From Planctomicrobium piriforme (GTDB lineage: Bacteria > Planctomycetota > Planctomycetia > Planctomycetales > Planctomycetaceae): a DNA stretch of 64,000 bases. Both the position numbers and the translations under genes were made by a program. A model generated the notes under the pieces. The model was not told the origin of the DNA, searched no databases, and saw only the letters and a list, made by a program, of their open reading frames with translations. Location of the stretch: positions 1 to 64,000 of the forward strand of contig CAMATH010000012.1 of assembly GCA_945860955.1 (NCBI GenBank). The letters run 5' to 3'. Positions within the stretch are counted from its first letter, which is position 1. Every line of letters begins with the position of its first letter. This document shows, in pieces, positions 3,990 through 64,000 of the stretch.

Positions 3990-4709
3990 ATGCGTTGCCT
4001 GTCGAGTACCCGGTGTTCAGTCGCCCGGGGGAAGTTATTCTGGGTGGCACTTTTTCTGCTCTCCCTGGTGAGTTCCGGCTGCGACCCCGCGAAACCTACC
4101 ACCGGGAGTAACACCCCGGGTTCGTCGCCGGTCACTCAGTCGGCGACCAATCGGAGTTCGACCGGGACCACGGGAGCGTCTTCCTCGAAATCGGGGGGGC
4201 CGCGGGTGTTGTTTCCGGTTCCCGAGTTTGAACTGGTCGACCAGACGGGTGGGGCGTTCCACTCGACCGATCTACGGGGCAAGGTGTGGATCGCGAATTT
4301 CATATTCACACGCTGCAAGGCGACATGTCCTATCCAGACCGCGAAACTCGCCGAGTTCCAGCGGCAGGCCCAGCGCTGGTCCGATTGGGACCGAGTGCGA
4401 CTGGTCAGCATTTCAGTCGATCCCGAGAACGACACTCCCGAAGTCCTTGCCCAATACGCCGACTCGTATCGAGTCGCCGGGAATTGGAAGTTTCTCACCG
4501 GTCCGCGTGAAGCGATCTGGAAACTCAGTAAAGAAGGCTTCAAGCTGGCGGTGGCGGAAGATCCCGCGGAGCCCGGCCCGATCACTCACAGCCCCCGCTT
4601 CGTTCTCGTCGATGGGGAGGGCCAGATTCGCGGGTTTTACGACAGTCAGCGGGATGACGAGATTCGGCAGATGACGATTGACCTGCGGCAGGTTCTGGAT
4701 GGGAAATAA
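3990..4709 (+). CDS. SCO1/SenC family copper chaperone / thioredoxin-like lipoprotein
   Basis: The protein has 239 residues from the ATG at 3990; an in-frame GTG at 3975 would add 5. A lipoprotein signal ends in LVSSGC. A Ser/Thr/Gly linker of about 50 residues leads to a thioredoxin fold starting near PVPEFELVDQ. The metal/redox ligands of the SCO family are intact: CKATC (CxxxC) and the distal His in ITHSPRF. SCO proteins deliver copper to, or reduce, the CuA site of cytochrome oxidase outside the membrane. Here the neighbouring CuA-like lipoprotein has lost its ligands, so the usual partner relationship cannot be assumed. The gene follows the kinase-lipoprotein unit on the same strand after 165 bases that contain a hairpin. 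No oxidase subunit gene is in the window. Confidence 0.88.
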   Translation: MRCLSSTRCSVARGKLFWVALFLLSLVSSGCDPAKPTTGSNTPGSSPVTQSATNRSSTGTTGASSSKSGGPRVLFPVPEFELVDQTGGAFHSTDLRGKVWIANFIFTRCKATCPIQTAKLAEFQRQAQRWSDWDRVRLVSISVDPENDTPEVLAQYADSYRVAGNWKFLTGPREAIWKLSKEGFKLAVAEDPAEPGPITHSPRFVLVDGEGQIRGFYDSQRDDEIRQMTIDLRQVLDGK

Positions 4710-49538: not shown

Positions 49539-51455
49539 TCATCCCTCCGGATCGTCAATCAACTCCAGAAACGGATCCAACCCCATCCCCACATGGTTCT
49601 TGAACCGCTGGTCTTCCTGCTTCAGCATCAGTTTACGATTCTTCAGGTGCAGTTTTTCGAGCCGTCGTTGAGAGCGTTCAAAGATCTTCAGGAAGTCGGC
49701 GGGAAGTTCTCCACGTCCCAGGGCGGCGGCCCGGGATTGGTGTTTCTTCAGCTCGGAGGGAGTCAGGCCGGCGAGCAGCTCGTCCTCGAGTGAGACGAAG
49801 AACTGAAAACTGCCGGGGTCTCCCTGGCGGGCCGACCGCCCCACGAGCTGGCGGTCGATTCGGGCCGAGCTGTGCATTTCGGTCGCGATCACATGCAGAC
49901 CGCCGTTCGCCTTCACATCGTCATCCAACAGAATGTCCGTTCCGCGTCCCGCCATGTTGGTGGCGATGGTCACTTTCCCCGCGCGGCCCGCGTGTGAGAC
50001 GATCGCCGCCTCTTCGCTCAGTTTACGAGCATTGAGCAACTGGTGGATGACGTTGCGGTCATGAAGCTGCGCGCTCAGACTCTCGGACGCCGCCACCGAC
50101 GGGGTGCCAATCAAAATCGCGCGGCCTTGGGCGACGAGCCGTTCGATTTCTTCAACCACCGCCTGGGTCTTCTCGCGCCAGGTGGTGAAGACCCGCGACG
50201 GAAACCCCTTTCGAATGCACGGCTTGTGAGTCGGGACGATCGAGACCCGCAAGCGATATGTCTTTTTCACTTCCTTCCGCACCGACCAGCCGGTTCCGGT
50301 CATCCCTCCCAGGAAGGTGTACTGTCGAAAGAAGCGCTGGACGGTCACCTGGGCCGCCGCCATGGTCCGATCGGTGATCGGAATCACCTCTTTGGCTTCA
50401 ATCGCCTGGTGCAGCCCTTGCTGCCACTTGCGGCCTTCCATCATCCGGCCAGTCGACTCATCAATGATCTGAACTTCTTCGTCTTCATTGATGACGTAAT
50501 CGCGGTCGCGGACAAAACCAAACTGCGCCGTCAGCGCCCGCTCCACCTGTCGATACATCTGTTCCGGTTCATGCCGGCCGACCAGTGCGGGCCGGGGGGA
50601 GAGCAGCACCTTCCGGCAACCCGACTCAGTCAGCACCGCGTCCCGTTTGTGCGGGTCGTACTGGAAATGTTCTTCGGAAACGAGAGTGGGGGCGATGGCG
50701 GCACCCCATTTGTAAAGGGCCAGAAACGCCGGGGGGGTTGCTTCTTCGGTGGAGATGATCAGCGGGGTTCGGGCGTCGTCGATCAGCACGCTGTCGGCTT
50801 CGTCGACCAGGGCGAAGTAGTGGCCGCGCTGGACGGGGCGCTCGGCGGTCGCCGCCCGTTCGGGAGAGGCGGCGTCGTCCATCCGCAGACGGTCACGCAG
50901 AAAGTCGAAGCCGAGTTCTTTGGCGGTGCCGTAGGTGACATCCCGGCTGTAATGGGCCCGCCGTTCGTCGGTCGATTGCGGTGTCTGGATGCAGCCGACC
51001 GTCATGGACAAGAGTTCGAATGCGGGACGATTGAGGTCGGCGTCACGAAAGGCGAGGTAGTCGTTGACCGTGATGACGTGGCAACCTCGACCGGGAAGTG
51101 CCCGCAGGTAGGCGGGAAGGACGGCGGTGAGGGTTTTTCCCTCGCCCGTCTGCATCTCAGCGAGACCCGCGTCGAAAATGGCGATGGCGCCGGCGATTTG
51201 GACGGGGTAGTGGGCCATCTTCAAGGATCGGCGACACGCTTCCCGCATCAGAGCGTAGGCTTTGGGCAACAGCTCCTTGAGTTCGGCTCCGGATCGGGCG
51301 AGCCATTTGAGGTCGATCCCGCGCAGTCGGAGTTCTTCGTCCGACACCGAGGTCAACGCATCGGAGTCGGCGATGATTTGCGAGACCAGTTGGTCGCGCC
51401 GGGCGGCGGAACCCGGGAGGTATCGGCCGGCGATGTTTCGAATTCGCGAAAACAT
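49539..51455 (-). CDS. SecA-like preprotein translocase ATPase, C-terminally shortened
   Basis: The ATG at 51455 gives 638 residues. The DEAD motor is complete: the Walker A region MQTGEGKT, DEAD-type VDEADSVLIDDARTPLI, the long peptide-crosslinking region with DEEVQIIDESTGRMM, MTGTGWSVRKEV, and the second motor half with IATNMAGRGTDILLDD and QLVGRSARQGDPGS. It ends soon after the second motor domain, in a lysine-rich helix (LEKLHLKNRKLMLKQ). Most of the scaffold, wing and C-terminal zinc-finger region of the normal about 900-residue SecA is absent. It is therefore an accessory SecA-type ATPase, not the housekeeping one. A partner or substrate is not evident; the next genes are DUF3467 and a small exported protein. 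Confidence 0.85.
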   Translation of the reverse strand: MFSRIRNIAGRYLPGSAARRDQLVSQIIADSDALTSVSDEELRLRGIDLKWLARSGAELKELLPKAYALMREACRRSLKMAHYPVQIAGAIAIFDAGLAEMQTGEGKTLTAVLPAYLRALPGRGCHVITVNDYLAFRDADLNRPAFELLSMTVGCIQTPQSTDERRAHYSRDVTYGTAKELGFDFLRDRLRMDDAASPERAATAERPVQRGHYFALVDEADSVLIDDARTPLIISTEEATPPAFLALYKWGAAIAPTLVSEEHFQYDPHKRDAVLTESGCRKVLLSPRPALVGRHEPEQMYRQVERALTAQFGFVRDRDYVINEDEEVQIIDESTGRMMEGRKWQQGLHQAIEAKEVIPITDRTMAAAQVTVQRFFRQYTFLGGMTGTGWSVRKEVKKTYRLRVSIVPTHKPCIRKGFPSRVFTTWREKTQAVVEEIERLVAQGRAILIGTPSVAASESLSAQLHDRNVIHQLLNARKLSEEAAIVSHAGRAGKVTIATNMAGRGTDILLDDDVKANGGLHVIATEMHSSARIDRQLVGRSARQGDPGSFQFFVSLEDELLAGLTPSELKKHQSRAAALGRGELPADFLKIFERSQRRLEKLHLKNRKLMLKQEDQRFKNHVGMGLDPFLELIDDPEG

Positions 51456-51470
51456 GTTTTTGACCCCTAC

Positions 51471-51502
51471 ACAAAGAGCCGCCCTCACGGCGAGGGCGGC
51501 TC
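51471..51502 (-). terminator. Hairpin between the DUF3467 and SecA-like genes
   Basis: On the minus strand a perfect 10-bp stem (51493-51502 with 51476-51485, loop of 7) is followed by TTTGT. It lies 29 bases after the DUF3467 stop and 20 bases before the SecA-like ATG, so it can act as terminator or attenuator of read-through. Confidence 0.6.
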
Positions 51503-52347: not shown

Positions 52348-53003
52348 TGTTCAGTGTCTCCCCTTCCGTGAGGAATGTCTGAAACGCGTGGAACGGTTAG
52401 GAATGAAATTCGGAAAAATCCACCCTTCTGGCATAGCCGAAGCGGTGGTATTGTCGGAATTCCTGGACAATTCCACCCCACATCGCCGCTACAGCCAGAA
52501 CAGGCGTCAGGGTCAACCAATCCCGGCATTGCCGAACCGGTCGCTCCGGATCTGCGGCGCGAAGGAATTACAGCGAGGGGCGACGATTCGGTGAGTTTGA
52601 ACGCTTGCGGGGGTCGATCGAATGAGGCGACTGGATGGAGTCCACCCAATCTGGGAGGTTCTCCAGGCGGTGTGGGAAAACACCGCTCACAATCGAGGGA
52701 TCGAGACGCCGGTCGGGCCAGGATGCCAAGCTTGAGAAAATCATGAACTTGAGGGGGTATTCCCTTTCTGGACTCCCTCATAGTATTGCCGTCTCTCCCT
52801 GCAATTGCCTGAATTGCCGCGCAAATCCCCTCGCTGGCGCAGTCAAACCGGTCTCATCACGCAGAATTTGCGTGATGATTCCGCAACCGTGACTGGCCAA
52901 AATGGGTAATGTGGGCAGATTTCGCAACGGCGTCGGCGGAGCGGTGTTTGTACTTCTGGCGTTGCGTCCTGCCTTCCTCTGTTTGTGTCCGGAGTCCTGC
53001 GTC
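52348..53003. other. Divergent intergenic region before the giant gene
   Basis: These 656 bases separate the small exported protein (minus) from the giant gene (plus). No coding frame has support. One 7-bp hairpin lies at 52857-52875. A CCGGAG sequence stands about 12 bases before the giant gene ATG. The promoter must lie here, but no clear -35/-10 pair can be named. Confidence 0.5.
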
Positions 53004-56000
53004 ATGCGTCTCGCCCCATTCGCGGATTTCATTAAGAACGTCGTTCTCAGCACAGGCCGGCCCGGCTGGTTGCGAGCGGCCACCCGCCTGGAGTTGAAGG
53101 CCCAAGCGCAAGATCGACGGAAGTCGCGGCGCGTGAGCTTCACGTCATCCGCCGAGGTTCTGGAAAGCCGGCAGTTACTCGCCGGTCCCCAGTTGGTGAA
53201 CATCGCCCCAAACACCGGGGGATTTCTCGCGAACGGGCAGATCCGCAACGAAGCCCCCCGGGAATTGGTGTTCACGTTCAGCCCGGGGGCGACGATCGAC
53301 GCCTCGACGGTCGACGCCGGGATCACCGTGACGCGAGCCGGGACCGACGGCATCGTCGGCTCGGGCGACGACATTCAGATCCCCAAGGGTTACGTCGGTG
53401 TCGGCCCGCTCCCCAATCAGGTGACGCTGCGGTTCGCCGACTCGCTGGTGGATGACCAGTACCGGGTTTCGATCAACGGAAACCTGCAGAACTCGCTGGG
53501 GCAGGCGTTCAATAACGGTACCACGCAGAACACCGATTTCCGGGTCGACTTCGGTGGTCAAGTAGTCTCGGTCGTTCCTCAGCCGGTGTTGCGGGCGTCG
53601 GTTCTCACGGTTGCTGACGCGTCGGCGATCACCGATGGTGACCGAGTGAGTGTTTCGGCGGGATCCAGCGCCGTCACGTTCCAGTTCCACTTGATTGGCG
53701 GAACCGGAGTCGTCGCCGCCGGCAACATCGCCATCAATTACAACCTGGGCGATTCCGCGACGACGCTGGCGAGCCGGCTGTCGAGCGCGATTCAGAGCGC
53801 TTCAGACGATGTCGCTTCGCCGCTCTACAAGCGCATCTTCCCGAGCGCCTCGTCGAACCAGGTGACACTCTCGGGTGCCGAGTTCTCCCCGGTGGTGGGA
53901 CGCACGCTGACCAACGCCACGTTCCTCACGGCGGCCGATGGCGGCTTGACCCAGGCGGCCGACACGGTGGTTGTCTATTTCAACCAGAACCCGCTGGTTC
54001 AGGCGCTGGCTGAAAACCCGGCGTATTATCAGGTGTTCGACGTCGCGACGGGCAAGATGTACCTCCCGCAGACGGTGCGGTACGACGCGGTGGGGAACAC
54101 CGCGGTGCTGCAATTCTCGGCGGACCTTCCACAGTCGACGTTCCACATTCAGATCGGTGCCCCCGCCGTCGCGAACGACACGTTGGGGAACGCCGTGAAT
54201 CTGGGAACGTTGTATGTGGACGGCGGAATCAACACGGTGGTCGGCTTTATTGGCGACCGCGGGGGGATCAGTTCCGATGTCCGCGATTTCGATCTCTACG
54301 CGTTCCGGACCGGACCCAATGGGACTTCGGGGAACGCGTCGGTCTTCGATTTCGATTCTTCGTTCACGAACGGAGTGCGATTGCGGCTGTTCTCCGCGAA
54401 CGGGAAGCAGATCAACTCCACCACCAATTCGATCCAATTCAACGGTCTGACCCCGAATACCCAGTATTACATCGGGGTTTCGGGAATGGGCAACAATTCC
54501 TATAGCCCGATCAGTGGCATCGCCAGCCAGAATGGCGTGGGAACCGGATCCTACAAGCTGCAAGTGGTTCTCGACAATTCGATCGTTCAGAACAACGACA
54601 CTTCCAGCTTCGACACGGCGACTCAGCTTGGGGTGTTGGGGGCCAACGGGTTCCAGGTCGAAGGGGAGATCAAGGCCCCGGGGAACCAGGCGTATCCGCC
54701 GATGCCCGGTGGGAGTGATGAACCCGGGCACCGCGAGATTCCTGTCGACGGGGAATCCAATGACGCCGGTACCGGGACGACGCCGACGATTCCCGCGGGA
54801 ATTCCCAGGTATTTCTACAACTTCCAATCGATTTACGGGACCGATCCGCAAGGCAATACGCTGCTGAATGGGATCACAGACACCCAGAAACTGCGGGCGC
54901 GCGAAATTCTGGAAATCTATTCGCGATACCTGGGGATCGAGTTTGTCGAAACGGACGAGCAGGGACTGACCATCGTGACCGGTGATCCCCGCGCTGTGGA
55001 CCCGACAATTCCTGTCGGGTCGGTGGGGGGCATCGCCGGCGGTGGTCTGGCGATTATGAATGGCAACACCGATTGGGGAGCGAGCGAATTCGGCGGAGCC
55101 TGGTTCGGAGTCGCCTTCCATGAAATCGGGCACTCGTTGGGTTTGGCGCACAGTTACGACGCGCCGAGCGTCATGGGATCGGGTTTCGAAACACCGGCCC
55201 CGCCGACTGGCGGCTCGACGCCAACCGAGCTGGTTCTCCCGGGCGATGTGAACCTGGTGGCAGCGCAAAGACTGATTCCCGCCTCCAGCACCGATGTCAA
55301 TCTTTACCAGTTTGATCTGACACAAAACGGCTCGATCAATGCCCGAGCGGTCGCCCAACAGTTGCGCGATTCCGATGGCAATCCGGCCCCGAGCCTGCTG
55401 GACCCCGTTCTGTCGATCTTCAGCGAGACCTACGTCACCGCAAAACTGTCGTCCGACTTTGGGACACTGAACGCGGTCAAACTGGGGTTTGTCGCCAAAC
55501 AATCCGGCGTTGGCGGCAACGCGATTCGGCTGGTCGTCACCAAGGCCGCTTTGGGAGCCGGGGTCGCGCCGCAAGTGTCGGTGAACGGCACGACAATCAA
55601 CATCGTTCTCAACACCGCCGGGACAACCGCCCAGACACTCGTCAACACCCTGAACGCCAACGCGGCTGCGTCGGCGCTCGTGACGGCTTCCGTCGATTCG
55701 GGAGTCGCGACGACCAACATCTCGGCCCCCAACACCACCTATTCACCGCTTTCGTTGACCGGCGGGGCGACGAATCGCACCCTGGTCGCCCGCAACGACG
55801 ACTACTTCGGGCGGGATTCGCTCGTCAATTTGCATCTCGACAAGGGACGTTACTACGCGGCGATTTCCAGCACCGGTAACACCGCCTTCAACCCGGTGGT
55901 CCCCGGGACAGGCTTCGGTGGGCGTACGGACGGGATCTATCAACTCGCCCTCAATTTCACGGCCGACCCGCAACCCAGTGAAACACTCAACGACATTCGT

Positions 56001-59000
56001 GGAGTGGCGCTCGATGGCGATCTCGACAATCGGACCGGTGGCGCGTTTGATTTCTGGTTCAAGACCGGCGACACGATTTTCGTCGACAAGGCGAATTTCA
56101 ACGACGTCGCCCCCGATGGCACCACCGCGCATCCCTACAGCACCATCTCCCAGGCTCTGGCTCTCGCCCAGCCCGGGCAGATTGTGCGCATTGTGGGGAA
56201 TGGCGGGCTGGACGGTGACGCGGCCACGATCGACGACAATCGCCCCTACCTGATCGGCTTCGATTCGCAGGGAGCGAATGCCGAGGATGGCGCGGACTTC
56301 ATTGTCCCCCAAGGGGTCACCGTGATGATCGACGCCGGCGCGATCATCAAGCTCAAGGGAGCGATCATCGACGTCGGCAAGACACTCCCCAACATCGATC
56401 GCAGCGGGGCCGCCCTGCAGGTTCTGGGGACACCCAAACAACAGGTCCAGTTCACGTCGCTGGGGAATGATTCGATCGGCGGTCGGAGCGACTCGAATGA
56501 CTTCGTCGGTCCTGCAGCGGGCAACTGGGGCGGAATCGTCTTTCGGCAGTCTTCCGACTTTCTGGGAATCAACGGCAAGCTCGACGGTCAGGATTTCCAG
56601 AACAAGGGAGTCTTCCTGAACTCGGTGAATCAGGCCTCCTTCAGCTTCGGCGGTGGTCAGGTCTTCGACGACTCGGTACTCCAGGTGTTCAACCCGGTGC
56701 ACGTCGAAAACCTGAATTCGCAGTCGCTCCGTTACGCCCGGCCGAACATTTGGTTCAACAATATCACCGCCAGCGCCGACGCGGCGATGTCGGCGGACCC
56801 CAACAGTTTCGCCAACACAGTCGACCGGTCGGGACCGTTCATTCGCGGCAACAAGGTCTCCGGGAACAGCGTCAACGGCATGTTCATCCGGGTGCGCACG
56901 AACTTCGGGCAGCCGATCGACAGCCTGCAGGTTCCCGCCCGCATTGACGACATCGACATCACCTACGTTCTCCCCGAAAACCTGTTCATTGATGGGGGTG
57001 CGGGTGGGCCCTATCTGCCCGATCCCAGCGATATTACCCATGCCGGCTGGCAGGCACGGGTCGCGGGGAGTCTGGTACTCGACCCCGGTGTGATTTTGAA
57101 ACTGTCGGGTTCGCGCATTCAGATGAACGTCGGGGGATCGCAGTTCCTGGCGGAAGGGACCGCGGCGCTGCCGATCGTAATGACCTCGCTGCGTGACGAC
57201 ACATTCGGTGCCGGCGGTTCTTTTGACACCGGTTCCGACGGAACCGCCCCCGTGACGAGGGGGGACTGGGCCGGGTTGTTCTTCACCGCCAATTCTTCGG
57301 GCAGCATCGATCACGCGATCGTCCAGTACGCGGGGGGAACGGCGGCCGTCGCCGGGCAGTTCGACGGTTTCAATCCGATCGCGATCCAGCAGGCGGACGT
57401 TCGCGTTGCGAACACGCTGTTCGAGAACAACGCCGGGGGCCTCGCCTCAACCAACCGCGACGGTTTGCAGTCCAATCAGTCCGCGACCGTTTTCGTTCGC
57501 GGGGCGCAACCGGTGATCGTGAACAACACGTTCATCAACAACGGTGGCAACGTCATCAGCGTCAATGCCAACGCCCTGAATTCGCTGGAGGTTTCGGACT
57601 GGGGCCGCAGCACCGGAACTCTCTCCGCCGCCACCCAGTACAAGAACAACACCGGCCCGCTGGTCGCCGGCAACCGCATGCTGGGGAACGAGACGAACGG
57701 CATGGAAGTCCGTGGCGAAGGGATCACCACCGAAACGATCTGGGATGATTCCGATATCGTCCACGTGCTGCGGGGTCAGGTGATCGAAGACATCAATCGA
57801 CATACTTTTGGCGGCATCCGACTCGCCTCGGGGAATGAATCGAGTCTGGTGGTCAAACTCGACGGCCCCAACGCCGGCTTCACGGTCACTGGTATTCCCC
57901 TTGACATCAACGACCGCATCGGGGGCACGTTGCAAGTCATTGGCTCGGCCCAATACCCGGTGATCTTCACCTCACTGAGAGACGACACGGCGGGGGCTGG
58001 CTTCCAACCCAACGGGCTGCCACTCCTCGACACCAACAACGATGGCAACCTCAGCGTCCCGACACCGGGAGATTGGCGAAGCCTGCGGTTGCAGCAACTC
58101 AGCAACGACCGCAATGCGGCGGTCGCGCTGGAAACCGAAGTCGCGTCGAATTCCGCCGAGCAGAACGGAACCCCCGGAACCGCCCAGTTCCTGGGGAGCC
58201 TGGCCCCGCAAATGGCCAGCGACAACGTCAACGAAAAGAAGGGGGGGAACGACTACCAGCCGTACGCGTACGAAGTGCATGGGATCCTTTCCGCCCCGTC
58301 CGATGTCGACGTTTACAGCTTCACCGCGAACAAGGGGACGGAAGTCTGGTTCGACATCTCCCGGACGACGTCTTCGCTCGACACCGTGCTGGAAGTGATC
58401 GACGCGAACGGGACCGTGCTGGCGACGTCGAACGATTCGCAGTTGCTCGACCAAGCGGGCCAGGCGATTCCCCGCCCGCTGATGAAAGACGCGAATGTGG
58501 GGGGTGACTTCTACACCACCAATCCGCGGGACGCCGGGATGCGGGTGGTGCTGCCGGGGTCGGCAGCGGTCAACACCTACTTCGTTCGAGTGAAGAGCAA
58601 CCAGGGATTGACCGCCGGTCAGTACAACCTGCAGGTCCGCATCCGGCAGTTGTACGAAGCCCCGGGTTCGACGGTTCGTTTTGCCGACATACGTTACGCG
58701 ACCAACGGTGTGGAAGTCCTGGGTCTGCCGGGCCGTTCGCCCCTCACGGGAGAAGGGACCGAGATCCCGGGAAACAATTCGTTCGGCTCGGCCACGAATC
58801 TGGGGAACCTGCTCCAGACCGACATGGCGACTCTGAGCGTTTCGGGGACCCTGTCGACAGCCAGCCAGGTCGACTGGTACCAGTTCCGGATGCAGTATGA
58901 CCTGCTCCAGGTGATTTCCGGGTCGAGCGACGGCAACAAAACGTTGGCCGCGATTTTCGATATCGATTACGCCGACGGACTGGTTCGTCCCGACGCGATC

Positions 59001-62000
59001 ATCTCGGTCTTCGATTCGGCGGGCCGACTGATTCTGGTCAGTCGCGATTCGAATATCACCGACGATCAGCCCGGGCCGCTGCAGAACAATGGTCTAAGTG
59101 ACATGTCCCGCGGCAGCGTGGGCAAACTCGATCCGTACATTGGTTCCGTGCAGTTGCCGACCGGCAATCCGGGTGCGACTGCGACCGCCGGCTTCACCTA
59201 CTTTGTCGCGGTCTCGTCGAATGCCCAGCTTCCGCAAGCGATGAATGGGACGTTCCAGAGCGGTGCCGCCAATGGGCTGGTGCGTCTGGAGCCAATCAAT
59301 TCCGTGAAGCGGATCGTGGAAGACCACATTGGTTTCACCGGCCATACGACGGGCGATCCCACCTCGGGTGTGACAGCCACGGTCGATCCGGTGAACACCA
59401 CCGGACTGTTCCCGATCAACACGATCGCCCAGCTCCAGACCGAAGTCACACCCTGGACCTTGCGCGACGTCACGCTCTATGGCCTGGCGGGTGATCAGCT
59501 TGTGGGGATCAATCCCTCGACGGGTGCCTCGCTGTACAATGCGGGGACAACGGTGGGCGGGTTCCAGGGGAGCATCAAGATGCGCTCCGATGGTGTGCTG
59601 TTCGGTTTCCGCGGGCTTCCTGGGACACCCAACACGGTGGGTGCTTTGGTTCGCATCGATCCCGCGACCGGAGCGACCACCCAGATTGGCGTCGACAACA
59701 TCCCCGATTTCAACGCGGGCACCAACCCGGCAGACCCCAACCAGCTCACTTCAGACACGGTCAATTCGTTCGCGTTTGTGCGAATCGGAACCGGCAACTA
59801 CAACCTGTTCTACGCCGTCGACGACACGACCGGCCTGTATAACGGTGGAGTTCGCGCTTCGCGTCTGTACCAGGCTGATCCAGCCAGTGGAAACGCGAAT
59901 GGCAATGTCCGTGGCGAAATCACGGCTGCCGGTTCGAACATCGGCACGACCACGGGGATGGCCGAGATCAATGGAACGTTGTTTGGAGTCAGCTCGAACG
60001 GCTTCTTCTACAGCATTAACCAGGGTTCCGGCACGGCGTCGGTCATCAGGAATTTCGGAACGCCGTTCCGCAGCCTGACGGAAGGGCCCAAGAACCTCAA
60101 CAATGGTGCGATGGCGGGGCTGTTGTTCGCGACAACCGCGGCGGGCAATCTGGTCTGCTTCAACACCTCGGGTGTGCTGCAGCCCGTGTTCGCCGGAAAC
60201 GCGTCACAGGTTCCCGTCGCCGCTGGCGGGATCCAGGGGATTTCGTTCTCGCCGCTCGACTGGAACCTGTGGCATCCGACGATGTCGCGAGGGGCCGATG
60301 CGGGTCACGGCATCAATGCAGCGTTCGATGAGTCGCGCGACTTCTCGAACGCGTCGATTCAACCGGCTCCAGCCTTTCCTCCCACAGTCACGCTTCTTCC
60401 GACCACCAACGAGCGCGCGGGCGGTGCCAGCTTCTACTTCGGCCTGGATGGTGGTTCGCCGATCGCGACGACAACCGCGCAGTACGGCGTGTCGAATGAC
60501 TCCCGGAACGACCTGCTGTCGAACCCCGCGCTCCCGAATTCCTACAACCTGCCTGGAGGTGCGTTTGGCAGCCTGGTGTCAAATACCAGTTTCAGCCTCG
60601 CGACGTACCAGGCGATCGATAAGCCGACCCTGTACTTCAACTACTTCCTGGCGACCGACGGAACCAACAGCGCCATCGGCATGCGGGACAGTGCCCGGGT
60701 CCTCGCCTCGACAGACGGCGGAACCACCTGGACGCTGCTGGCGACGAACAACAGCGTGAGGTCTCCCGCCGGGACCGCCACCCGGGAATTGCCAGCGTTC
60801 ACATCCGCATCCAAGGCGATTTCGGCGCAGTCCAACCAGGCGGTCCAGGAACTGTTCGACAACACCGGGGGATGGCGCCAGGCCCGCGTCGACCTGGCCG
60901 AGTATGCCGGCCAGGCGAATATCCGATTGCGGTTTGATTTCAGCACCGCCGGTGCCGCTCTCGCCGGCAGCCAGACCCAGGGTCTACCCGGTGACACGTT
61001 TGGTGTCGGGCCGAACAACTCCGGCCGCGCCGCGAACAACGCGTTTGAAGGGTTCTATATCGACGACATCATCGTCGGTTTGGCGGAGCGGGGCGAAATG
61101 GTGACCGGCGCGGTCGCCGACACCAACTTCTTCGCCGTCCCCACCAACCCCGATCCCCAGGCTCCCACCCAATCCCTCGTCGGTCCCTACCAGTTGGAGA
61201 TCCGCCGTGGTGAGCAGTATGGTACCCTGGTCAGCAAGGGGAACAGTGAAATCACGATTGATCGGCAGTTCGACTCCAACGATCGGCTGACATCGGGATT
61301 CACGATCACGGCGGTTGCGGGCAATGCCCTGTTGGACGGACAGGCCTTCACGATCAGCGATGGCGTCAACACGCTGACCTTTGAGTACGACAGCAACAGT
61401 TCGGTTCTTCCGGGCCGGGAACGGCTCGCGTTCACGAACGTCTCAACCGCCGCCCAGGTGGCCCAAACGATTCGCGACACGATCAACGCCGCGGCCGCCG
61501 CTGGCAAGTTTGTCGTCACCGCCACGCTGACCGACGACAACATCACCGCTGTCAACAACAACGGGAACTTCAAGGTCGACTTGTTCAAGGCGACCTCGAT
61601 TTCCGGCGCGATTGCTCCCGACGTGATCGCGACAGTCAACAAGACGACCATTTCTGAAGTCGGGTCGACCTCGGCCGGCCAGGCGACTGTCACGGTCCGC
61701 CGGACCAATTCGACCGCCGCAGCCCTGACCGTCAACCTGCAGGCGATCGATCCGACCACCGGTGCGGTTTCGAACGCGATCACGCTCCCCGCCAGCGTGT
61801 CAATTCCGAGCGGTCTATCTTCGGTGACCTTCACCGTGTCCGGTCTGAACAACACCCTGCTCGACTTCACCCGGTCTGTGCTGATCAGGCCGACGGTCGC
61901 CCGTTACAACTCGGTGTCGGCCCCGCTGGACGTCACCGATGACGAAACCGCGACCCTGACGTTGTCCGCCGCCGGCGCGATCACGGAGGGCGAGTCGGCG

Positions 62001-64000
62001 ATGGGCACGGTCACCATCAGCCGGGCCCCCAGCGTCCCTTTGACGATTCGCCTCAATTCGCTCGACACGTCCGAATTGGCCGTCCCGGCGACTGTCACGA
62101 TTCTCGCGAACCAGACGTCGGCGACCTTCACGATCAACGCCCTCCAGGACAACTTGAGGGATGGAAACATCGTGACGGGCGTGGTCGCGTCCGCGACCGG
62201 CGTGGCGTCGGGGATCGCTCCGATCACGGTCGTCGATACCAACACCGGTTCGACTTCGATCCGTCAGACCCTCACCGTTGCCATCACCCCAACCAGCCTC
62301 GCCGACGGAGGTTCTGTCGGTGCCGCCACCGTCACCCGCACCGGACCGACCACATCTCCCCTCACGGTCACACTGACTTCCACCAATCCGACGTTTCTGT
62401 CGGTCCCGGCGAGCGTCGTGATCCCCGCGAATTCAGCCTCCGTGAGCTTCAACGTCACGCCGCGCAACAGCCGCTTGGCACTGTCACGCGAAATGGTTCT
62501 GGTTGCAGCGACGAATTCCAACTTCGACACTGTCGCCGACTTTGTTGACATCACCGACGCGGATGTTCGCGCCTTGAGCGTCACGCTCAACGCGTCGTCC
62601 GTGGCCGAGGGGGGTACCGTCACCGGAACAGTCACCCGCAACAGCCTCACCACCCAGGCGCTGGTTGTGACACTGTTCACCACCGATTCCTCGGAAGCGA
62701 CAGTGCCGACCACGGTCACGATCCTCGCGGGGCAATCGTCAGCCACGTTCACCGTGACGGCGACCGCCGACGGCGGAGAGGACGGCACTCAGTCGGTGCA
62801 GGTTGGAGCCACCGCCCGTGGATTCGCCACCGGCCTGACCGCGCTCTCGGTTCAAGATTCCCCTGTGGAAAACGGAACTCAATACAACCGGATGGGGGAC
62901 ACCAATACGGTTCGCGACCAGGGTCAGATTCAGATCTACGGCAACGCGATCTCGAATGTCTCTCAGTTCGGGATCGTCTCGAACAATACGCTGCGGGACC
63001 CGGTCACCGGGCTCCCCCGTCCCGGTTCCGCGATCAATACCCCGACACTCAACAGCCAGCGGCTGGTCCCCGGGATCAATATCTCGAACAACCTGGTCTA
63101 CAACTTTGGCCAGGGTGGAATCAACTTTGTGGGGACCGGCGCTGCCAATCCCACGGGCGTGGTGTCGTTCGGTCGGATCGTCAACAACACGATCTTTGGC
63201 GATGTGGTTCCGGTCGGTGTCGGTATCTCTGTCTCGAACGGTGCCGGCCCGACCGTCATGAACAACATCATCGCCAACACCCGCACCGGTGTGGCGGTGG
63301 ACGCCAGTTCGATCGGCACCACGGTGGTCGACGCCTCGGTGTTCAAACAGAACATCGCGAATCTCTCCGGCGGCGTCAGCGCCACCAACACGATCAACCT
63401 CACTCTGTTGACCGATCCGCTGTTCGTCAATCCGCTCACGGGCAACTTCTACCTGGCCCCCGGGAGCCAGGCGATCGACAGTTCCCGCAACTCGTTGTCG
63501 GAACGGGCGGGGATCAGTTCGGTCAAGTCGCCGCTCGACATTCCGGTGTCGCCAATCATCGCTCCCGCCAACGACCGCTTCGGCCAGTTGCGGCTCGACG
63601 ATCCCGCCGTCCCGAATGCGATCGGTCTCGGTGCCAACATCTTCATCGATCGCGGCGCGATTGAACGGGCCGACTTTTCGAAGCCGAAAGCCCGGCTCAC
63701 CACGCCGCTCGATAACGGCGTTGGTGTGGATGGCGACTCGACGCTCGACACCGTGTTCATCACCGCTCCCACCGATCTCACGCAGATTGTGCTGCAACTG
63801 ACCGATCTGGGGGTTGGGATCGACAACGCCACGGTGATTTCGTCCAACTTCATCTTCGCGCAAGACGGGATCGTGCTGGTCGACGGCGTCGACTACCAGT
63901 TCGTCTACAACCAGAACACCCGACAGGTCTTCTTCCAGTCGATCTCGGTCTTCCCGCCCCAGAACAGTTACACCATCACGATCCCGGCCAACGCTGTGGC
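53004..64000 (+). CDS. Giant secreted multidomain protein with matrixin-type zinc signature (3' partial)
   Basis: One plus-strand frame stays open from ATG 53004 to the right edge, at least 3665 codons; the stop lies outside the window. The start has a basic stretch and VLESRQLLAG (motif at 53-61), shared with the 8046 protein. Modules in order: a PPC-like domain at about 391-523; a peptidase-like part with H706-E-x-x-H710-x-x-G-x-x-H716 and Met724, exactly the matrixin spacing; a second PPC split by an inserted module at about 763-990; a parallel beta-helix at about 1015-1650; PPC-like domains at about 1756-1886 and from 1924; a propeller-like part at about 2150-2420; Calx-beta-like repeats at about 2880-3285; and a second beta-helix region at about 3290-3490. 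It is presumably exported or surface-bound. The long minus-strand frames inside it are shadows. Confidence 0.9.
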   Translation, partial: MRLAPFADFIKNVVLSTGRPGWLRAATRLELKAQAQDRRKSRRVSFTSSAEVLESRQLLAGPQLVNIAPNTGGFLANGQIRNEAPRELVFTFSPGATIDASTVDAGITVTRAGTDGIVGSGDDIQIPKGYVGVGPLPNQVTLRFADSLVDDQYRVSINGNLQNSLGQAFNNGTTQNTDFRVDFGGQVVSVVPQPVLRASVLTVADASAITDGDRVSVSAGSSAVTFQFHLIGGTGVVAAGNIAINYNLGDSATTLASRLSSAIQSASDDVASPLYKRIFPSASSNQVTLSGAEFSPVVGRTLTNATFLTAADGGLTQAADTVVVYFNQNPLVQALAENPAYYQVFDVATGKMYLPQTVRYDAVGNTAVLQFSADLPQSTFHIQIGAPAVANDTLGNAVNLGTLYVDGGINTVVGFIGDRGGISSDVRDFDLYAFRTGPNGTSGNASVFDFDSSFTNGVRLRLFSANGKQINSTTNSIQFNGLTPNTQYYIGVSGMGNNSYSPISGIASQNGVGTGSYKLQVVLDNSIVQNNDTSSFDTATQLGVLGANGFQVEGEIKAPGNQAYPPMPGGSDEPGHREIPVDGESNDAGTGTTPTIPAGIPRYFYNFQSIYGTDPQGNTLLNGITDTQKLRAREILEIYSRYLGIEFVETDEQGLTIVTGDPRAVDPTIPVGSVGGIAGGGLAIMNGNTDWGASEFGGAWFGVAFHEIGHSLGLAHSYDAPSVMGSGFETPAPPTGGSTPTELVLPGDVNLVAAQRLIPASSTDVNLYQFDLTQNGSINARAVAQQLRDSDGNPAPSLLDPVLSIFSETYVTAKLSSDFGTLNAVKLGFVAKQSGVGGNAIRLVVTKAALGAGVAPQVSVNGTTINIVLNTAGTTAQTLVNTLNANAAASALVTASVDSGVATTNISAPNTTYSPLSLTGGATNRTLVARNDDYFGRDSLVNLHLDKGRYYAAISSTGNTAFNPVVPGTGFGGRTDGIYQLALNFTADPQPSETLNDIRGVALDGDLDNRTGGAFDFWFKTGDTIFVDKANFNDVAPDGTTAHPYSTISQALALAQPGQIVRIVGNGGLDGDAATIDDNRPYLIGFDSQGANAEDGADFIVPQGVTVMIDAGAIIKLKGAIIDVGKTLPNIDRSGAALQVLGTPKQQVQFTSLGNDSIGGRSDSNDFVGPAAGNWGGIVFRQSSDFLGINGKLDGQDFQNKGVFLNSVNQASFSFGGGQVFDDSVLQVFNPVHVENLNSQSLRYARPNIWFNNITASADAAMSADPNSFANTVDRSGPFIRGNKVSGNSVNGMFIRVRTNFGQPIDSLQVPARIDDIDITYVLPENLFIDGGAGGPYLPDPSDITHAGWQARVAGSLVLDPGVILKLSGSRIQMNVGGSQFLAEGTAALPIVMTSLRDDTFGAGGSFDTGSDGTAPVTRGDWAGLFFTANSSGSIDHAIVQYAGGTAAVAGQFDGFNPIAIQQADVRVANTLFENNAGGLASTNRDGLQSNQSATVFVRGAQPVIVNNTFINNGGNVISVNANALNSLEVSDWGRSTGTLSAATQYKNNTGPLVAGNRMLGNETNGMEVRGEGITTETIWDDSDIVHVLRGQVIEDINRHTFGGIRLASGNESSLVVKLDGPNAGFTVTGIPLDINDRIGGTLQVIGSAQYPVIFTSLRDDTAGAGFQPNGLPLLDTNNDGNLSVPTPGDWRSLRLQQLSNDRNAAVALETEVASNSAEQNGTPGTAQFLGSLAPQMASDNVNEKKGGNDYQPYAYEVHGILSAPSDVDVYSFTANKGTEVWFDISRTTSSLDTVLEVIDANGTVLATSNDSQLLDQAGQAIPRPLMKDANVGGDFYTTNPRDAGMRVVLPGSAAVNTYFVRVKSNQGLTAGQYNLQVRIRQLYEAPGSTVRFADIRYATNGVEVLGLPGRSPLTGEGTEIPGNNSFGSATNLGNLLQTDMATLSVSGTLSTASQVDWYQFRMQYDLLQVISGSSDGNKTLAAIFDIDYADGLVRPDAIISVFDSAGRLILVSRDSNITDDQPGPLQNNGLSDMSRGSVGKLDPYIGSVQLPTGNPGATATAGFTYFVAVSSNAQLPQAMNGTFQSGAANGLVRLEPINSVKRIVEDHIGFTGHTTGDPTSGVTATVDPVNTTGLFPINTIAQLQTEVTPWTLRDVTLYGLAGDQLVGINPSTGASLYNAGTTVGGFQGSIKMRSDGVLFGFRGLPGTPNTVGALVRIDPATGATTQIGVDNIPDFNAGTNPADPNQLTSDTVNSFAFVRIGTGNYNLFYAVDDTTGLYNGGVRASRLYQADPASGNANGNVRGEITAAGSNIGTTTGMAEINGTLFGVSSNGFFYSINQGSGTASVIRNFGTPFRSLTEGPKNLNNGAMAGLLFATTAAGNLVCFNTSGVLQPVFAGNASQVPVAAGGIQGISFSPLDWNLWHPTMSRGADAGHGINAAFDESRDFSNASIQPAPAFPPTVTLLPTTNERAGGASFYFGLDGGSPIATTTAQYGVSNDSRNDLLSNPALPNSYNLPGGAFGSLVSNTSFSLATYQAIDKPTLYFNYFLATDGTNSAIGMRDSARVLASTDGGTTWTLLATNNSVRSPAGTATRELPAFTSASKAISAQSNQAVQELFDNTGGWRQARVDLAEYAGQANIRLRFDFSTAGAALAGSQTQGLPGDTFGVGPNNSGRAANNAFEGFYIDDIIVGLAERGEMVTGAVADTNFFAVPTNPDPQAPTQSLVGPYQLEIRRGEQYGTLVSKGNSEITIDRQFDSNDRLTSGFTITAVAGNALLDGQAFTISDGVNTLTFEYDSNSSVLPGRERLAFTNVSTAAQVAQTIRDTINAAAAAGKFVVTATLTDDNITAVNNNGNFKVDLFKATSISGAIAPDVIATVNKTTISEVGSTSAGQATVTVRRTNSTAAALTVNLQAIDPTTGAVSNAITLPASVSIPSGLSSVTFTVSGLNNTLLDFTRSVLIRPTVARYNSVSAPLDVTDDETATLTLSAAGAITEGESAMGTVTISRAPSVPLTIRLNSLDTSELAVPATVTILANQTSATFTINALQDNLRDGNIVTGVVASATGVASGIAPITVVDTNTGSTSIRQTLTVAITPTSLADGGSVGAATVTRTGPTTSPLTVTLTSTNPTFLSVPASVVIPANSASVSFNVTPRNSRLALSREMVLVAATNSNFDTVADFVDITDADVRALSVTLNASSVAEGGTVTGTVTRNSLTTQALVVTLFTTDSSEATVPTTVTILAGQSSATFTVTATADGGEDGTQSVQVGATARGFATGLTALSVQDSPVENGTQYNRMGDTNTVRDQGQIQIYGNAISNVSQFGIVSNNTLRDPVTGLPRPGSAINTPTLNSQRLVPGINISNNLVYNFGQGGINFVGTGAANPTGVVSFGRIVNNTIFGDVVPVGVGISVSNGAGPTVMNNIIANTRTGVAVDASSIGTTVVDASVFKQNIANLSGGVSATNTINLTLLTDPLFVNPLTGNFYLAPGSQAIDSSRNSLSERAGISSVKSPLDIPVSPIIAPANDRFGQLRLDDPAVPNAIGLGANIFIDRGAIERADFSKPKARLTTPLDNGVGVDGDSTLDTVFITAPTDLTQIVLQLTDLGVGIDNATVISSNFIFAQDGIVLVDGVDYQFVYNQNTRQVFFQSISVFPPQNSYTITIPANAV

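Follow-up and report, generated by a model that had tools for sequence, protein, structure and literature searches.

The window, by which we mean the whole 64,000-nucleotide stretch that we analysed, comes from an 8.4 Mb planctomycete draft genome and ends inside the gene for a giant protein (Table 1). A preliminary description of this DNA had seen at least 3665 codons without a stop. The frame does indeed run on: open from position 52902 to the end of the window, it was extended on the full contig to its stop codon at 66860. There are in-frame ATGs at both 52902 and 53004. The second is the likely start, because in a close relative (G164) an in-frame stop lies upstream of the position matching 53004, and in the G165 orthologue the matching start reads MRFSPFRDFI. 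Counted from 53004, the protein is likely to be 4,618 amino acids long. Residue numbers in this article are those of the 52902 reading (protein P0002), in which residues 740-750 are the 706-716 of a count from 53004.

Table 1. Features of the giant gene (window positions) and the tandem giants found in other genomes.
Feature	Position	Strand	Extent and evidence
Giant protein gene	53004..64000	+	Codons 1-3,665 of 4,618; stop codon beyond the window, at contig position 66860
LESRQLLAG, N-terminal LExRxLL motif	53154..53189	+	Similar to planctomycete extracellular motif PF07595, which scores below its cut-off here
First two strands of host PPC beta-sandwich (SSFDTATQLGVLGANGFQVEGEI)	54597..54701	+	AlphaFold2 models and ColG structural alignment across both sides of the peptidase
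DEPGHR motif	54717..54734	+	Some 130 residues ahead of the zinc motif; 60 of 70 family copies read exactly xEPGHR
Matrixin (M10) domain, residues 634-795 of P0002	54801..55286	+	Pfam, profile, AlphaFold2 models, structural alignment, dN/dS 0.08
Zinc-binding motif HEIGHSLGLAH, residues 740-750	55119..55151	+	Motif reading and family alignment
Met758, Met-turn residue, +8 after third His	55173..55175	+	Sequence and comparison of relatives
Remainder of host PPC domain, residues 797-1045, with second insertion	55290..56036	+	AlphaFold2 model and structural alignment
Second insertion in host PPC, residues ~860-960	55479..55781	+	Lacking in orthologues such as L108; dN/dS 0.047
Conserved core of giant, residues ~1050-2800	56049..61301	+	Aligned in 17 of 17 giants compared; start beta-helix-like by eye
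Separate PPC domain, residues 1801-1853	58302..58460	+	Pfam PF04151, 27.6 bits (cut-off 25.9)
Tandem giants, G282:C57			5,709 + 5,797 aa
Tandem giants, G199:C2			6,473 + 8,010 aa
Tandem giants, G346:C1			6,627 + 6,659 + 8,487 aa
Tandem giants, G400:C1			7,353 + at least 7,342 aa (still open at the end of the region read)

Upstream of the giant and divergent from it, on the minus strand (49542-51488), is a gene for a SecA-like ATPase of 649 amino acids, shorter than a typical SecA. Between the two are small genes for a DUF3467 protein and a 144-residue hypothetical protein. The two stand side by side in the window's genus; by genome, a homologue of the SecA-like gene adjoins the orthologous giant in G164, G166, G126 and G133 and is near it in G102. 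A general link between the two genes is ruled out by the complete g10 genomes, where the homologue lies far from the giant, and by its presence in 147 of 170 genomes irrespective of whether they have a giant. The PolX and phosphotransferase neighbours gave no matches near orthologous giants.

Near the N-terminus of the giant is a small peptidase domain. Nucleotides 55119-55175, from the zinc motif through to the methionine, encode HEIGHSLGLAHSYDAPSVM. The preliminary description had placed HExxHxxGxxH at residues 706-716 with Met724 eight residues past the last histidine, had seen a small peptidase domain before the motif and had read the whole as a matrixin (M10). Each of these points is borne out in the window protein, where the methionine becomes Met758. 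Peptidase_M10 (PF00413) matches at 28.3 bits against a Pfam cut-off of 24, and 24 of 25 relatives have an M10 match at E <= 0.01. A profile from ten relatives matches MMP-12 with an E value of 2e-9; the alignment covers 94 profile positions, beginning at the first helix (RAREI...), taking in the zinc motif and ending at the methionine, and it pairs the helix ITDTQKLRAREILEIY with helix one of the MMP catalytic domain. Comparison of predicted structures with M10 peptidases, which had been proposed at the outset, agrees. We used two AlphaFold2 models, one of residues 560-1045 of the window protein (mean pLDDT 65.6) and the other of the corresponding module in the orthologue L108, which is without the second insertion (mean pLDDT 77.2; blocks of the peptidase core mostly 85-96), and ran Foldseek on both as well as the alignments that gave the Z-scores. 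The window-protein model aligns with MMP-9 (Z 11.1, 134 residues) and the L108 model with MMP-12 (Z 12.5, 2.8 A, 139 residues). The domain is thus predicted to have a metzincin fold, and the structural alignments imply that the three histidines meet at one site.

Could the motif simply be a chance occurrence in a low-complexity adhesin? Nothing speaks for this except that the protein is long. Given its amino-acid composition, HExxHxxGxxH would be expected 9e-7 times by chance, that is about 1e-6, and 6e-9 times with the methionine included; profile, fold and conservation all concur, and we have ruled out what is in any case an extremely remote explanation. The Met-turn methionine itself varies among relatives whose zinc ligands are intact. 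Across 132 of them it stands at +8 in 47, at +10 in 40 and at +9 in 2, with none at the expected place in 43. Structures of Met mutants of PrtC are among the structural matches, so this variation alone does not exclude the fold.

The preliminary description had noted a PPC module near the peptidase. There is one, and the peptidase sits inside it, not merely beside it. Against the collagen-binding domain of ColG, the window model scores Z 13.2 over 110 residues and the L108 model Z 12.9 over 104 residues (2.3 A), with the peptidase lying within the aligned span, residues 5-325, of the latter. The ColG stretch is contiguous; the aligned range of the models extends from residue 1 to 460 in the window model and from 5 to 325 in L108. 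The sequences of relatives are arranged likewise, the start of the PPC domain (NSSF.TAT.LG.LG....I...I) standing before DEPGHR and the remainder (D.DLY.F ... GTYFIGVSSTGN) following the peptidase. Because both the ColG alignment and these sequences straddle the peptidase, we read it as an insertion between the second strand of the PPC domain and the later ones. The models therefore describe a matrixin built into a PPC/collagen-binding-type beta-sandwich that is discontinuous around it. In the orthologue L108, PF04151 is recognised in the host domain at 30.4 bits (cut-off 25.9); the Pfam scan did not report it for the host domain of the window protein, which holds the second insertion. That insertion, of about 100 residues, is common to only some relatives, is highly conserved between this genome (G000) and G164, and is unrelated to the peptidase insertion.

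How does this arrangement compare with known systems? The predicted host domain shares its beta-sandwich fold with the s3b PPC/collagen-binding domain of ColG (Z ~13 over 104-110 residues), and differs from it in that an inserted peptidase of about 190 residues divides it, as the second insertion does too in the window protein. Likeness to the catalytic domains of MMP-12, MMP-9 and MMP-13 lies in the predicted fold, HExxHxxGxxH, the first helix and, in the window protein, Met at +8. Here the peptidase is inserted in a PPC domain of a 4,618-residue protein and the methionine varies among relatives, the cysteine-switch pro-domain of MMPs is missing and Pfam finds no hemopexin domain, a domain that is not universal in MMPs either. 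The serralysins (PrtC and alkaline protease) are bacterial metzincins too, with structural scores comparable to those of MMPs. They are two-domain secreted enzymes of about 460 residues, whereas the peptidase here is a small insert in a giant, and its best profile and Pfam matches are matrixins.

Directly before the peptidase stands DEPGHR, which is nearly invariant in the nested module that marks this family of giants. Its position recalls a pro-segment, and residues 440-1060 contain no cysteine, so one could imagine DEPGHR as a latency switch that blocks the zinc in place of the cysteine switch of animal MMPs. We think this very improbable. Many degenerate copies that lack the zinc site retain DEPGHR together with the xGLG core, the linker is of low confidence in both AlphaFold2 models, and on the tree changes in the DEPGHR histidine do not track those in the zinc site (median p 1 in a sign test, from few informative pairs), which leaves the switch without support from co-change.

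The window's family is widespread. The domain occurs in 69 of 170 genomes, mostly as one copy each, in open frames that are mostly 4,000-9,000 residues long, the shorter ones often lying on short contigs. A search for the same architecture in other planctomycetes, suggested in the preliminary description, found the module in 122 of 397 genomes of the class Planctomycetia (MAGs of Gimesia, Blastopirellula and Rhodopirellula are among the named contigs), and a phylum-wide draw of genomes added only one matching genome from outside the class. Of 69 aligned family copies, 67 have preserved the zinc ligands and the catalytic glutamate, further evidence for the matrixin reading. By column of the 69 aligned rows, His740 and Glu741 are invariant, His744 is present in 68, Gly747 in 67 and His750 in 66. 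Comparison of the window gene with that of G164 gives a dN/dS of 0.08 for the peptidase: purifying selection on it is strong.

The conservation of the zinc residues, firm within the family, gives way many times outside it. A sample of 175 distinct copies holds 132 with the zinc ligands and 43 without, a proportion that is no rate of loss, since the sample was enriched for weaker matches. On trees built with the motif columns left out, the zinc site has changed at least 13-14 times, four of the changes being forced by well-supported branches. Such losses suggest that the module can serve without catalysis, which would then not be universal to it. Might the nested domain of the window protein, too, now be a binding or structural pseudopeptidase, its intact site a relic or a structural zinc? 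The degenerate copies hold on to the rest of the domain, often with DEPGHR, and in some genomes the copies that we read are all degenerate. The reading is nonetheless improbable for the window's family, given the 67 of 69 copies with ligands and catalytic glutamate, the purifying selection on the domain and, in particular, Glu741, which is dispensable for zinc binding yet invariant in family copies. For the degenerate copies we think a role in binding alone likely; for the window protein we think it unlikely.

Intact and degenerate sites also occur side by side. In four regions of Pirellulaceae, giants follow one another on the same strand, separated by some 110-390 bases (Table 1); the first, upstream giant has a degenerate nested site and the last an intact one, while the middle giant of G346 has no HExxH motif at its nested domain. 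Among same-strand pairs the order is degenerate first and intact second in seven of eight, the exception (G425) having both degenerate. These arrays are operon-like. The last giants of the arrays have a second HExxHxxGxxH nearer the N-terminus.

Homology among the giants extends far beyond the peptidase, through residues ~1000-2800 in all 17 compared. Among the modules that the preliminary description saw around the peptidase, PPC stands, with a separate domain at residues 1801-1853 above the Pfam cut-off; Calx-beta/LapA and cadherin signals are below theirs. That the giant is an adhesin is something we infer. The window protein has no recognised signal peptide or anchor, and we base export on two features of its relatives: each of the 16 orthologues whose N-terminus is complete has LExRxxL, and in one subgroup (L088, L092, L094, L095, L096, L102 and L104) the C-terminus is a short hydrophobic stretch followed by RRRRR/KK, resembling a membrane-anchor-sorting signal. 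The giant is thus probably exported, to the surface or the extracellular matrix. The window protein and other orthologues lack such a tail. At its own C-terminus P0002 has about four copies of a repeat of some 70 residues (W..NGK...I.Q....L.F.N..G..S.G; residues ~4340-4652, contig 65920-66857), for which we found no solved structural relatives and which most orthologues lack.

What, then, might the giant do? The reading we favour, with some confidence, is that of a probably exported giant that carries a catalytically competent matrixin in a loop of a PPC domain near its N-terminus and most likely trims or remodels proteins of the cell itself, in its surface coat or holdfast matrix. The protein would sit outside the cell, the PPC sandwich would hold the peptidase beside a bound protein or glycan, and the zinc site would hydrolyse peptide bonds in proteins of the coat or matrix, other giants included. 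In related families, degenerate copies may have been kept for binding only. The main rival makes the giant a tethered digestive enzyme, its peptidase serving nutrition or attachment by acting chiefly on outside protein (detritus, or the matrix of algae or animals). The resemblance of the host PPC domain to the collagen-binding domains of clostridial collagenases points this way, as does the fact that, among enzymes of known structure, MMPs come closest, and published planctomycete giants have been interpreted as adhesion or carbohydrate-active proteins (PMC7717043). PPC domains, however, occur on many secreted proteins and a common fold is no proof of collagen binding, and a role in structure or maturation accounts at least equally well for the single copy per genome in the family and for the tandem giants in Pirellulaceae. 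We consider action on outside protein possible, and clearly less probable than work on the cell's own coat. A bolder extension, and a doubtful one, is that Planctomycetia share a surface machine of giants, in which a PPC-nested matrixin, active in one giant and degenerate in its tandem partners, processes or assembles the giants, active and dead copies being paired in operon-like runs of up to 66 kb.

Giant genes are a published hallmark of Planctomycetes whose function is open (PMC5177795). The giant family described here, found in about one third of the sampled genomes of the class, has near its N-terminus a conserved enzyme whose active site can be predicted, which makes the role of these giants testable through one small domain and one change of a catalytic residue, and a matrixin inserted in a PPC domain, with repeated loss of the zinc site in tandem partners, should be useful for the study of pseudopeptidases. 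A giant 'Matrixin' is not itself new: Stieleria varia has one, Pla52n_17500, of 6,858 residues, adjoining the giants Pla52n_17480 and 17490 (PMC7717043). As the last of three consecutive giants it resembles the tandem arrays described here, a likeness drawn from its description only; it was published as a table row, with no description there of nested architecture, conservation or degenerate copies. In the limited open-access literature that we searched, we found no account of a matrixin nested in this way, of DEPGHR as a signature, of a family spanning the class or of tandems that combine intact and degenerate copies, nor any pairing of matrixin with pre-peptidase C-terminal, and a recent paper on MMP transfer does not mention planctomycetes. 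What we take to be new here is the nested matrixin, the family marked by this module with its DEPGHR motif, the repeated loss of the zinc site and the tandems of intact and degenerate copies.

The genome of the window has two more giants, on G000:C127 (L100) and G000:C53 (L099), of at least 3,681 and 4,723 residues respectively, whose matrixin matches lie deep in the protein and are of another type (HEIGHAxGLGHTDF), with two M10 matches on C127. The nested matrixin of G050:C21 (L079) lies within an open frame of 18,985 codons.
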